Shown in pieces: positions 50,724 to 54,651 of a stretch of DNA of 64,000 bases. Made by a program: the position numbers and the translations under genes. Numbering within the stretch: the stretch's first letter is position 1; each line of letters begins with the position of its first letter. The notes below the pieces were generated by a model. That model had not been told where the DNA came from. It searched no databases and saw only the letters and a list, made by a program, of their open reading frames with translations. The stretch is from assembly GCA_030430715.1 (NCBI GenBank), contig JAUIJZ010000003.1, positions 1 to 64,000 of the forward strand, written 5' to 3'. Source of the DNA: Alphaproteobacteria bacterium. Its GTDB lineage: Bacteria; Pseudomonadota; Alphaproteobacteria; Caulobacterales; Aquidulcibacteraceae.

Positions 50724-51692
50724 TTATTCCGCCGCCTTGGCGCGCGCCGGCTTCGCCGTCTTGCGCTTGGCGGGCGCGGGCGTTTCCGGCGCGGCTTCTT
50801 CTTCCGGCTCCACATCGCTTGCGCCGCTCTGCGCCGCCGCGCTCTTGTGCATCAGCACGGAGAGCAGCGTCGAAACCGTGGCTTTCAGCTCGCGGCGGTC
50901 CACCACCATGTCGACCATGCCCTTATCGAGCAGATATTCCGAACGCTGGAAGCCTTCCGGCAACTTCTGGCGGATCGTGTTTTCGATCACGCGCGGTCCG
51001 GCGAAGCCGATCAACGCGCCCGGCTCGGCGATATGAATGTCGCCCAGCATTGCGTAGCTCGCGGTCACGCCGCCCGTGGTCGGATCGGCGAGCACGACAA
51101 TGTAGGGCAGGCCGGCTTCGTGCAGCGATTGGATCGCCAGCGTCGTGCGCGGCATCTGCATCAGCGAGAGGATGCCCTCCTGCATGCGCGCGCCGCCCGA
51201 AGACGTCACCACGATCATCGCCGCCTTACGCCGCAGCGCCGCTTCCGCCGCCGCAACGAAGGCTTCGCCGGCGGCCATGCCGAGCGAGCCGCCCATGAAT
51301 TCGAAATCTTGTACCAGAACCACTGTCGGCGCGCCGCCGATGCGGCCATAGCCGGCGGCCATGCAATCGTCGCGGCCAACCTTGAGGCGCGCGCCCTTCA
51401 GGCGGTCGACGTACTTCTTGTCGTCCTTGAACTTCAGCGGATCGGTCGCGACTTTCGGCAGCGTCAGTTTCTGCCACGCCGCATCGTCGAACATCTGCTT
51501 GAAACGCGCATCCGGACCGATGCGCATATGGAAGCCTGACGGCATCACCCAATGCGCCGCTTCCAGATCGGTGCGGTAGATCAATTCGCCCGAAAGCGGA
51601 TCCTTCACCCAAAGATTATCGGGCGTATCGCGCTTATCTTCCTCGGGCTTCTTCTTGAGTCCGGGCCGCGCGAAATTCGACAGCCAATTCAT
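50724..51692 (-). CDS. accD: Acetyl-CoA carboxylase carboxyltransferase subunit beta, without zinc-ribbon cysteines
   Basis: 322 residues. Carboxyltransferase motifs [50 protein letters not shown] and GFAGPRVIE are intact. The N-terminal zinc ribbon, normally four Cys in two CxxC pairs, reads [20 protein letters not shown] and [10 protein letters not shown], with no cysteine at all. The Ala/Lys-rich tail (residues 290-322) is not conserved. It partners AccA in malonyl-CoA synthesis. Coupled to trpA by ATGA. Confidence 0.93.
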
Positions 51693-52516
51693 GCGCGCAT
51701 CCCTTCCGTTGCTCGCGCAGTCCTTACAGCTTCGCTCAGAAGCTTCACCTTATGCAAGACGCGGCCGGGCGCTTCCGGCCCCGCGCCTGCGGAAATCTCG
51801 TCAACGAAAGCAGAACCAACCACGACCGCGTCGGCAAGACGCGCGATTTCGGCGGCGGCTTGCGGCTCGCGGACGCCGAAGCCTACGGCGACAGGAAGGG
51901 GGGTGGCGCGTTTGAAGCGCTGCATGGCGGATGAGACGCTGTCTGTTTTGGCGGATTTCGCGCCGGTCACCCCGGCAACGGACACATAATACAGAAAACC
52001 CGAGGCGCCTTCGAGCACCTTGGTTAACCGCTTATCGTCGGTGGTTGGCGTGGCCAGGCGAATAATGGAGAGCCCGTGCGGCGCGAAGGCGGCGCGCAGA
52101 TCGCCATCTTCCTCCGGCGGCAGATCCACAAGGATGACGCCATCGGCGCCGGCCTTCGCCATTTCTTCCGCGAACACGCCATGCGTCATCTGCTCGACGG
52201 GATTGGCGTAGCCCATCAGAACGAGCGGCGTGTCTTTGTCGGTCTCACGGAAACGGCGCGCGAGGTCGAGCGTCTTGCCCAAGCTGCCGCCTGCTTTCAG
52301 CGCACGCTGCGCGGCTTTTTGAATGCTCGGGCCGTCGGCCATCGGATCGGTGAAGGGAAAGCCAAGCTCGATCACGTCGGCGCCCGCGGCGGGCAGACCT
52401 TTGAGAATTTCAAAGCAGGTTTCGTGATCGGGATCGCTCGCCATGATGTACGCGACAAGGCCGGCGCGGCCTTCGCGTTTCAGTGCGGCGAAGCGTGTGG
52501 AAAGACGTTCGCTCAA
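51689..52516 (-). CDS. trpA: Tryptophan synthase subunit alpha
   Basis: 275 residues from a TTG at 52516 ([20 protein letters not shown]). The TTG overlaps the GFA-gene stop as TTGA. Catalytic Glu is in [17 protein letters not shown] and Asp in [12 protein letters not shown]; the phosphate-binding region GVTGAKSAK and [14 protein letters not shown] are present. It cleaves indole-3-glycerol phosphate and passes indole to TrpB. Unusually it is separated from trpB by two other genes and a remnant of its own 5' end. Confidence 0.92.
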
Positions 52517-52860
52517 AAACTTGCCCCGTCCACCTTTTGAATCGCGATGGCGTCGATATCGAGGGCGGGAATGCAGCGCAAATTCACTGCCGCCATCTTG
52601 TTTCCGTTCATCTCGCCCCAGCCATGCGTGGCGCATCCGCACGTTTTGCAGAACGTGTGGTCGATCACCTTCTTATGGAATTTGTAGCTGGAGAGCGCGC
52701 CGTCCGCCGATTCAACTTTTAGCGCGTCCGCAGGCATGAAAGTCAGCATGTAGCCTTTGCGGCGGCAATGCGAGCAATTGCACACCATGGCTGTGTCGAT
52801 CTCGCCTTCGAAGCTGATCTTTACTGCGCCGCAATGGCAGGAGCCTTCGTAGGTCGTCAT
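52513..52860 (-). CDS. GFA family (CENP-V/Gfa-type) zinc protein
   Basis: 115 residues. Zinc cysteines in the GFA pattern: GSCHCGAV near the start, CNCSHCRRKG at about 27-36, and CKTCGCATHGW at about 71-81. The namesake enzyme was reported to promote glutathione-formaldehyde adduct formation, but most family members have no proven activity. It lies inside the trp operon between a vestigial trpA start and trpA, coupled on both sides by overlapping stop/start codons. Confidence 0.88.
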   Translation of the reverse strand: MTTYEGSCHCGAVKISFEGEIDTAMVCNCSHCRRKGYMLTFMPADALKVESADGALSSYKFHKKVIDHTFCKTCGCATHGWGEMNGNKMAAVNLRCIPALDIDAIAIQKVDGASF

Positions 52861-52970
52861 AGCTCATCGCTCCAAGCAGAGGCGTCCCCTCCTCCCTCGC
52901 GGAGGAGGGGGAGAGGCGCGCGTCCTTCGCGTTTCAGCGATGCGAAGCGGATGGAGAGACGGGAAGTCAT
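52857..52970 (-). pseudogene. Vestigial trpA 5' end (37-codon ORF) carrying a REP-like hairpin
   Basis: From the ATG at 52970 the minus strand reads [18 protein letters not shown], which aligns without gaps to the first 18 codons of the real trpA ([18 protein letters not shown]); 40 of 54 bases match, including a 14-base identical run. Codon 19 onward is taken over by a GGAGGAGGGG hairpin, and the ORF ends TGA overlapping the GFA ATG. Its own ATG overlaps the upstream gene's stop. It looks like a duplicated and truncated trpA start, left by the event that placed the GFA gene here. Confidence 0.75.
52886..52910. repeat. REP-like palindromic hairpin
   Basis: CCCCTCCTCC, loop CTCGC, GGAGGAGGGG: a perfect 10-bp stem with a 5-base loop, inside the vestigial trpA ORF. 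Similar C-rich, 5-base-loop hairpins occur at 63164-63186 and 63294-63316, so it belongs to a dispersed palindromic repeat family. Confidence 0.65.
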
Positions 52971-53440
52971 TGTTGGCGTCTCGGAACTCTCGCCATATTC
53001 GCCGGCAGATCAAATTCATCCAGATCGCAGCGACGGCCTTGCTCGTAGCGAAAAATGTACAGGATTTCACCGACCGGCGTTAGGGGTAGGTCTCCCCGTT
53101 GAGGGTCTCCGCGCCGATACTGAAGTCGGTCGGGGCATTGGGGCATGTCGGATCTCACGAGGGTGGTCCACGTGCCGACTGGCGAGGGCGGTGTCGATTG
53201 CCAGCCATCGGCGTGAAGACGTTGCAAAAGCGTGTTCAACACAGCGTCTTGACGGGCCTCTTCAATTATAACGCACTGCTCTCGAGGCTGAGTGCGATAG
53301 TTGCATTCGGCGGTTCGGCCCGCGATGTCCAAACGAACCGGGTGCGCCACGTCTTCACCCTCGAATACGAGTGTCGTATCTGCTCGCGCGAATGCGCATT
53401 GAGCCCAAAGCAGCGCGCAAGCCAAAAGCGCCGCCCTCAC
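52967..53440 (-). CDS. Hypothetical secreted protein inside the trp operon
   Basis: 157 residues from a GTG at 53440 that overlaps the trpB stop (GTGA). Signal peptide [20 protein letters not shown], cleavage after ARA near residue 20, then four Cys in the mature part (about 47, 56, 101, 139) that could form two disulfides. No family recognised. The stop overlaps the vestigial trpA ATG. It appears to be an insertion between trpB and trpA kept in frame with the coupling. Confidence 0.6.
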
Positions 53441-54651
53441 AGCTTCACTCCAAGCGCATCGGCCACGGTGAACACGTCCTTATCGCCGCGTCCGCACAGG
53501 TTCATGATGATGAGCCCGTCCTTGCCGATCTCCTTGGCGATGTCGCCCACGCGTGCGAGCGCATGGCTCGGCTCCAGCGCCGGCAAAATGCCTTCAAGCT
53601 TCGCGCAAAGCTGAAACGCCGCCAGCGCCTCCTCATCGGTCGCGGCGAGATATTTCGCGCGGCCAATGTCGGCGAGATACGAATGCTCGGGGCCAACACC
53701 GGGATAATCCAAGCCGGCGCTGATCGAGTGGCCTTCGAGGATCTGGCCGTCTTCGTTTTGCAAGAGATAAGTGCGGTTGCCGTGCAGCACGCCGGGGCGT
53801 CCGCCATTGATCGCCGCGCTATGCTCGAAGCGTTCGTCGATGCCGTGGCCCGCCGCCTCGACGCCGTACAACTTCACATCTTCATCGTCCAAGAACGGAT
53901 GAAACAGCCCAATCGCATTCGAGCCGCCGCCGATGCACGCCATCACCGCATCGGGCAGGCGGCCTTCACGCTCCAAGATCTGCGCGCGCGCTTCGCGGCC
54001 GATAATGCTTTGGAAGTCACGCACCAGTTCCGGATAGGGATGCGGACCTGCGGCGGTGCCGATGCAATAGAAAGTGTCGTGCACATTGGTGACCCAATCG
54101 CGCAGCGCTTCGTTCATGGCGTCTTTCAGCGTCGCCGCGCCGCTCGTCACCGGGCGCACTTCCGCGCCCAGCAGCTTCATGCGGAACACGTTGGGCTTCT
54201 GCCGCTCCACATCCGTCGCGCCCATGAACACGACGCAGGGCAAACCTAAACGCGCGCAAACGGTCGCCGTCGCCACGCCATGCTGGCCGGCGCCGGTTTC
54301 GGCGATGATGCGCGTCTTGCCCATGCGCAGCGCCAGCAGCACTTGCCCGAGGCAATTATTGATCTTGTGTGCGCCGGTATGATTGAGCTCGTCGCGTTTG
54401 AAGTAGATCTTGGCCCCGCCAAAATGCTCGGTGAGGCGTTCGGCGAAATAGAGCGGCGAAGGACGGCCCACATAATGGGTCCAGAAATCGTCCATCGTCG
54501 CCGCGAACGCCGGGTCGGCCTGAGCGGCGCGATACTCGCGCTCCAGGTCGAGCACGAGCGGCATCAGCGTCTCGGCGACGAAACGCCCGCCAAATTTGCC
54601 GAAGCGGCCTTGGGCGTCGGGTAGGTCTTGCCAGTTGCGGCGCGCGTCCAT
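53437..54651 (-). CDS. trpB: Tryptophan synthase subunit beta
   Basis: 404 residues. PLP lysine in [14 protein letters not shown] (about 92-98), [16 protein letters not shown] phosphate loop [13 protein letters not shown], and [18 protein letters not shown]. It joins indole and serine to tryptophan. It lies 17 bp after trpF. Unusually its stop is coupled to an unrelated secreted-protein gene rather than to trpA. Confidence 0.95.

Follow-up and report, generated by a model that had tools for sequence, protein, structure and literature searches.

A 37-codon ORF between trpB and trpA of an alphaproteobacterium as a probable recombination scar and putative translational relay

In the trp operon of the alphaproteobacterial genome considered here (G000), trpB and trpA are separated by three open reading frames (ORFs), the shortest of which, of 37 codons, starts as a copy of the trpA start, continues as a palindrome, and is joined to its neighbours by stop–start overlaps on both sides. 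We think it probable that this ORF is the scar of recombination between two haplotypes of the junction, kept as a translational relay. A broader proposal, which we put forward more tentatively, is that the trpB–trpA junction is a site of cargo exchange which admits mostly those inserts that continue the chain, with repeats and the stump acting as relay ORFs that deliver ribosomes—an independent counterpart of the mycobacterial MIRUs.

Organisation of the trpB–trpA junction

The window, which comprises the 64,000 nucleotides of DNA that were analysed, carries on its minus strand the order trpF, trpB, small secreted-protein gene, 37-codon ORF, GFA-domain gene, trpA and two genes which, from their proteins, we take to be accD and folC. 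The gene for tryptophan synthase beta, trpB (53437–54651; PF00291 (PALP), E 4.7e-40), ends in the motif GTGA (53437–53440), in which its stop codon overlaps the GTG start of the secreted-protein gene (52967–53440); the latter has, by eye, a signal-peptide-like N-terminus. Its stop in turn overlaps the ATG of the 37-codon ORF (52857–52970) in an ATGA (52967–52970), and a second ATGA (52857–52860) joins the stop of this ORF to the ATG of the GFA-domain gene (52513–52860). Finally, TTGA (52513–52516) joins the GFA stop to the TTG start of trpA, the gene for tryptophan synthase alpha, which is whole (51689–52516) and occupies a position in trees unlike that of trpB. A further 4-nt overlap links trpA to accD. 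The initial annotation had described both this unbroken chain and the three genes within it; the chain test located all four overlaps, between 53440 and 52513, and the genes were confirmed as ORFs, with Pfam matches for GFA, trpA and trpB.

Origin of the 37-codon ORF

Codons 1–18 of the 37-codon ORF (52917–52970) align to codons 1–18 of trpA just as had been annotated, without gaps and with 40 of 54 bases identical, after which the sequence turns into the palindrome. When the whole genome (3.24 Mb) was searched with a 601-nt DNA query consisting of part of this ORF and the preceding gene, the only match besides the query itself was the trpA start (44 bp, 84%, E 3.2e-6). With its 37 codons and no Pfam match at an E-value of 0.001, the ORF lacks the full-length Trp_syntA domain of a working trpA. 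It has no match in NCBIfam either, and membership of another gene family, which the initial annotation had named as an observation that would tell against its reading, was rejected on these grounds. The stump derives from trpA and is very probably a former trpA start.

The same annotation regarded the stump as a duplicated copy which had decayed, and this is not borne out. Nine N-terminal residues of TrpA (R4, R8, F9, A10, L12, K13, R14, R17 and A18) are conserved, in the sense of being present in at least 85% of the 26 relatives in the genus trpA set; all nine are kept in the stump, and 16 of 17 stump residues lie within the genus repertoire at the same place. Simulated random decay kept all nine residues with a P of 0.001 for 14 changes and 0.039 for seven, and in 10% of trials for five. 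The identity of the stump to its own trpA is, moreover, usual for a pair of species: the first 54 bases of trpA share a mean of 36.3 bases between species of the genus (sd 5.0, 325 pairs), compared with the 40 shared here. With the conserved residues intact and the identity at between-species level, the stump looks to have diverged mostly while it was still a functional start, rather than by decay from the present trpA.

The ATG at 52970 had been proposed as the original trpA start. That it is a former trpA start is very probable; that it is the old and since decayed start of today's trpA is not supported. Sixteen other members of the genus have a secreted-protein-type ORF ahead of trpA, so this ATG lies where a trpA start would sit. 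The nearest matches of the stump are to G028 and G001 (43/54, versus 40/54 for its own trpA); the nearest match was set aside as a guide to the source lineage, since 54 bases are too few to decide it. The working trpA does use TTG, as annotated, but this need not be a makeshift start, as TTG is found at the position aligned to trpA codon 1 in the relatives G021, G007, G017, G012, G002 and G009 as well.

The palindrome, recognised by eye as CCCCTCCTCC-GCGAG-GGAGGAGGGG (52886–52910, not assigned to a strand), begins 6 nt past codon 18 of the stump and has hairpin arms of 10 bp. Its 23-nt core has no second copy in the window at up to three mismatches (0 expected), and a DNA search of its own genome with 68 nt around it returned itself and seven matches of 14–19 nt only, with no second full copy. 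The idea that it is a repeat with many copies in this genome was accordingly rejected. RNA folding of the stretch gave a z of -2.1, and 6 of 200 shuffled sequences folded equally well. The palindrome is similar in make to a dispersed repeat of relatives, yet single in its genome, and so lacks the dispersed copies that mark MIRU-like repeats.

Contents of the junction in related genomes

The genus sample consisted of 30 genomes. trpA was found in 29 of these (all but G008) and lies on one locus with trpB in 27, G019 and G020 having no trpB at the trpA locus. Something stands between the two genes in 27/27 loci: 17, that of the window among them, have a secreted-protein-type ORF, nine a palindromic repeat, and one (G024) GFA alone. 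The junction of G010, one of the nine, holds a short ORF besides its repeat, and that of G011 a secreted-protein gene followed by a trpA with an ATG start. Nine secreted proteins, from the window and from the same junction of eight relatives, were aligned and share an invariant C-W-R-C-C at 18–29% identity; four of them, including the window's, gave no match above the cut-off in Pfam, and the window's gave none in NCBIfam. The family appears to be fast-evolving, and by eye similar ORFs stand at trpB–trpA in other families (G068, G065 and G208). Other cargo is seen at this junction in the family f2, namely a CutA1 gene and a glyoxalase-like gene (both by Pfam) and a lipoprotein-like gene; in one member, G258, the junction extends to 4.2 kb and contains genes which by eye resemble a VapBC pair and ApbE.

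The GFA-domain gene of the window matches PF04828 (E 2.4e-14; 53.9 bits against a gathering score of 24.3) but scores only 15.9 bits against the NCBIfam equivalog TIGR02820, S-(hydroxymethyl)glutathione synthase, for which the cut-off is 234.55. By NCBIfam, its predicted product is a GFA-domain protein rather than the formaldehyde enzyme proper. The initial annotation treated it as a captured gene which had arrived with a duplicated trpA start, and had named a relative with GFA but no trpA-like sequence upstream as a finding that would contradict this. Such a relative is G024, in which trpB is joined by ATGA to GFA and GFA is followed after 5 nt by trpA, with neither a secreted-protein gene nor a trpA-like stretch. 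The two GFA proteins are 70% identical, the next best in the family being 46%, and are joined in the GFA tree (98/74). In the rpoB tree G000 groups with G011 (SH-aLRT 94) and then with G024 (83), neither value being starred.

Across the order, GFA matches at E 1e-22 or better occur in 45 of 299 genomes, G000 and G024 included, with a best identity outside the genus of 52%; at six of 18 such loci that were checked, trpB or trpA lies inside the fetched 1.5-kb flank. Larger stretches place GFA between trpB and trpA in eight genomes of family f2, which were chosen for having a GFA match, and one of these genes (G139) has an in-frame stop; four further f2 genomes are without GFA there. A single clade of all trp-linked GFAs (f2 together with G000 and G024) is rejected (p-AU 0.0195), so the linkage of GFA to trp may have had more than one origin, or may have spread. 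In view of G024 and of the other family, GFA is probably an old resident of the junction; recent capture was discarded, and here the initial annotation appears to have been wrong.

The trees of trpB and trpA place G000 differently. For trpB, G000 groups weakly with G024 (87/65), a clade of G000, G024 and G011 has a p-AU of 0.054, and grouping with G017, G021 and G007 is rejected (0.025). For trpA, the constraint that puts G000 together with G024 is disfavoured (0.032) and the one with both G024 and G011 rejected (0.0016), while its grouping with G017, G021 and G007 is not rejected (0.286). The constraint sets behind these AU values were partly picked after the trees had been seen. The trpA placement of G000 is also unstable, falling with G017, G021 and G007 in one tree and with G013 in another, and G011 itself shifts between trees (with G003 for trpB). 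The discordance, at modest values and with unstable trees, fits a junction assembled from two lineages.

Parallel stumps in other genera

A scan for direct repeats in 56 junctions of the family found repeats of trp genes in three, those of G000, G057 and G042. In G057, from another genus (G057:C280:17000-24000), a secreted-protein gene is followed by codons 1–34 of trpA (95 bp, 89%), a palindromic element, ATGA and a whole trpA. The best match of this stump is its own trpA (88/102), and by eye residues which are invariant in the genus alignment have changed in it, which fits a duplication within the lineage. In G042, from a third genus (G042:C14:57000-64000), the order is palindromic element, copy of the trpB 3' end (50 bp, 86%), trpA; the copy matches the trpB of G042 itself at 43/53, and more closely that of G029, which belongs to the window's genus, at 50/53. 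By eye, one edge of the trp copy coincides with a stop–start overlap in all three genomes.

Conservation of the stop–start chain

A junction was scored as strictly chained when ATG, GTG or TTG starts were linked by overlaps of 4 or 1 nt, and an insert was counted when longer than 30 nt. The starts of downstream genes were inferred, allowing 30 nt from the aligned start for the chains of the family and 45 nt outside the family and at repeat loci. On this basis the family has 36 junctions with an insert, of which 28 are strictly chained; in the genus it is 21 of 27. These counts include sister species, whose junctions are not independent of one another. Five of the eight misses have gaps of 2–5 nt (G021, G007, G017, G013 and G024) and three have larger ones (G010, G055 and G044). 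The family also has 20 uninterrupted trpB–trpA pairs, 16 overlapping, for instance by 4 nt in G058, and four not. Outside the family, 30 genomes were given, of which 21 were readable and 16 had inserts; three of the 16 are strictly chained, and 11 are chained within 10 nt.

The inserts that consist of palindromes only (G010 counted) are strictly chained in 13 of 14 cases. In shuffled palindromic inserts the chance of a chain averages 0.47 at fixed length and lies at 0.01–0.31 when the length is varied by 0–2 nt; against the length-randomised shuffles, 13/14 has a P of about 4e-9, and 11/11, taking one junction per clade by our own choice, about 1e-8. When 1–2 nt are deleted at any place in these 13 repeats, a chain is still present in 0–48% of cases, so that in some repeats a chain is easily obtained. 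Sister species show overlaps at several registers, and in G023, whose repeat ORF is frameshifted relative to its sister, a new overlap leads into a second ORF. As the initial annotation had supposed, the coupling architecture is preserved, since the chain is intact in the window and chains are in excess in relatives; judged from these sequences, the intact stop–start chain looks to be under selection.

Other junctions of the operon served as a control in 34 genomes (29 of the genus and five of neighbouring genera). Inserts of more than 30 nt occur at 31 of 32 trpB–trpA junctions, 5 of 30 trpF–trpB junctions and 0 of 34 trpA–accD junctions. Two of the five trpF–trpB inserts are palindromic relays and are chained; the other three (32–67 nt) are unchained. 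The two palindromic inserts, with their chained ORFs, are of 298 nt in G029 and 157 nt in G010, at a junction where uninterrupted relatives mostly have a short gap and no overlap.

A dispersed palindromic repeat in relatives

The repeat at the trp junction of G004 has 30 matches in G004, 34 in G001, 39 in G014 and six in G023, a total of 109 in which some copies are hit on both strands. Part of these matches, amounting to 79 copies in 70 loci, were placed relative to genes by a simple gene caller of our own, one which missed the secreted-protein gene of the window: 47 lie between codirectional genes, 18 inside a called gene, seven between convergent and three between divergent genes, and four at an edge. 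In-frame insertions in genes are known from the Rickettsia palindromic elements, and the 18 copies inside called genes are possibly insertions of this kind.

There are 45 distinct codirectional junctions with the repeat, 11 of which have a gap of more than 260 nt; the other 34 were scored. A strict relay is present in nine (2.3 expected; P 4e-5) and a relay within 12 nt in 19 (6.3 expected; P 1e-7), under a null that ignores open frames common to copies of one repeat and with a query repeat that is itself a relay. When the two trp junctions and second orthologues are left out, the remaining 29 junctions give P values of 0.002 and 8e-6, respectively. No relay exists even at 12 nt in 15 of the 34. 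By eye (G014, G001 and G023), the repeat forms strict relays in pheS–pheT and in a SURF1 pair and falls 8 nt short of one in rpoB–rpoC; in a thioesterase pair the strict repeat relays of two species differ by 6 nt. All these genes are named from the look of their proteins. The repeat of the relatives thus combines dispersal with an ORF that overlaps genes at the insertion site by 4 nt or 1 nt, the two features looked for in a MIRU-like repeat.

Recombination model and alternatives

The trpB–trpA junction of this lineage appears to swap its cargo, which includes secreted-protein genes, palindromic repeats, GFA and others. We infer that two haplotypes were joined in the ancestry of G000, one with trpB, a secreted-protein gene and trpA, and one ending in palindrome, GFA and trpA. 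Most likely, one side would have recombined by homology, within either trpB or trpA, while the other was joined illegitimately, codon 18 of one trpA to the palindrome, so that a truncated trpA start was left behind; the stump could be native or foreign. The frame formed by stump and palindrome is open from ATGA to ATGA, and ribosomes could pass from the secreted-protein ORF to the relay, on to GFA and then to trpA. The relay would in this way tie the translation of trpA to that of trpB, whose products form one complex.

The account given in the initial annotation, in which GFA, together with the palindrome, was inserted at trpA codon 18 and a second start came with it or was created by it while the old one decayed, agrees with the order of parts, with the intact overlaps and with the relatives that have a secreted-protein gene and then trpA. 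One such relative is G011 (trpA with ATG), the sister of G000 by rpoB at the unstarred value of 94, and the ancestry of trpA seems unlike that of trpB, as if trpA had come with what precedes it. We nevertheless think it unlikely, because GFA occupies the same junction without a stump in G024, and the junction of another family as well, and because the conserved positions of the stump are intact rather than decayed. The palindrome might instead be a mobile element that inserted in trpA with a long target duplication (54–105 bp), the downstream trpA staying whole. In G057 the two repeat copies lie immediately on either side of an element with terminal inverted repeats, and G000 and G042 have one similar edge each. 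Against this, 12 of 14 palindrome-only inserts at the junction have no direct repeat, and G010 has just one of 26 bp within its repeats; the G000 duplicate spans GFA as well, and the two G042 copies look to be of different lineages. Long target duplication was also rejected as a general habit of such palindromes: among 30 hairpins in a 400-kb stretch of G001 none has direct repeats (controls 0/64), nor did a cruder one-sided flank test find any at 11 elements. We therefore regard a mobile element as a quite unlikely source of the stump.

Two further explanations concern the ORF as it now stands. It could be a neutral remnant without a role, its frame and overlaps being due to chance or to the avoidance of polarity; among shuffled palindromic inserts of varied length roughly one in five, on average, would form a strict chain, and Rho polarity alone favours any open frame. 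Rho-polarity avoidance would, however, not favour exact overlaps, and the pattern over the 14 palindromic inserts is far beyond chance, with overlaps recurring at several registers in sisters, so we find a neutral remnant improbable. An assembly artefact, in which two strains were mis-joined at the palindrome, is suggested by the fragmentation of the assembly into 172 contigs, but is very improbable given that the join breaks neither the frame nor either of the overlaps and that G057 has a like architecture. Recombination of two haplotypes, with retention of the scar as a relay, thus remains the reading we prefer.

Comparison with known systems

Stop–start coupling of trpB and trpA in E. coli goes back to Aksoy 1984 and Das and Yanofsky 1989, as cited in PMC10666635 and PMC12548453. 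According to the former report, coupling of trpBA needs the overlap, a gap of about 20 nt nearly abolishes reinitiation in the pairs tested, and 15 nt of the upstream gene are enough. A relay ORF could therefore carry ribosomes across an insert. The gene pair is the same in both cases, and relatives without an insert have the 4-nt overlap (G058); in the window's genus, by contrast, the pair is split by up to about 1.3 kb of genes or repeats and the overlap is relayed. Within a single family, this one junction offers a natural test series for translational coupling: the genes of the two subunits adjoin directly or are linked through other genes, repeats or a stump, with the chain mostly kept.

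The nearest architectural parallel is with the mycobacterial MIRUs, which are reported to be dispersed short repeats with an ORF at the gene start, coupled by a 4-nt overlap, and to do little harm to expression (PMC12548453). The repeat of the relatives resembles them in being dispersed and in having an ORF linked by overlap to a gene start. It differs in belonging to other bacteria, in its palindromic sequence and in chains with stop–start overlaps on both sides, the likeness drawn here being one of architecture, and the relay in the window differs further in being half trpA stump. By this analogy the repeats of the relatives look like an independent case beside the MIRUs, and the ORF of the window like a variant whose relay is partly a gene stump. 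In the literature searched, mostly outside subscription journals, we found no description of a palindromic relay in alphaproteobacteria. Were relays to carry ribosomes from trpB to trpA, ribosome delivery would be the only product of the relay ORF that matters, short ORFs without a protein function would be selectable, and repeats could enter essential operons without breaking them; the repeat already bridges other subunit pairs, pheS–pheT strictly and rpoB–rpoC nearly. The case also cautions that not every small ORF whose start and stop are intact is a gene.

As to how the stump arose, homology-facilitated illegitimate recombination has been proposed to leave relics in the immunity-gene arrays of Vibrio T6SS (PMC5361080). 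One homologous and one illegitimate end would in both cases yield orphaned copies and mosaic arrays, and by analogy we favour this combination for the trp stumps, with the difference that the relic in the window is a gene stump which would be reused as a relay. A short ORF between operon genes, mgtQ between mgtC and mgtB of Salmonella, is reported to promote downstream translation (PMC8092293), which is what we propose for the ORF of the window; mgtQ is described there as acting via stem-loops and ribosome-destabilising residues, in contrast to the simple stop–start relay proposed here. Finally, Burkholderia and Flavobacterium are reported to have genes of unknown role between trpB and trpA (PMC2395257). 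Those cases resemble ours in having non-trp genes at this place, a likeness of position; the cargo here consists of GFA, the secreted family, CutA1 and repeats, and varies within one genus.
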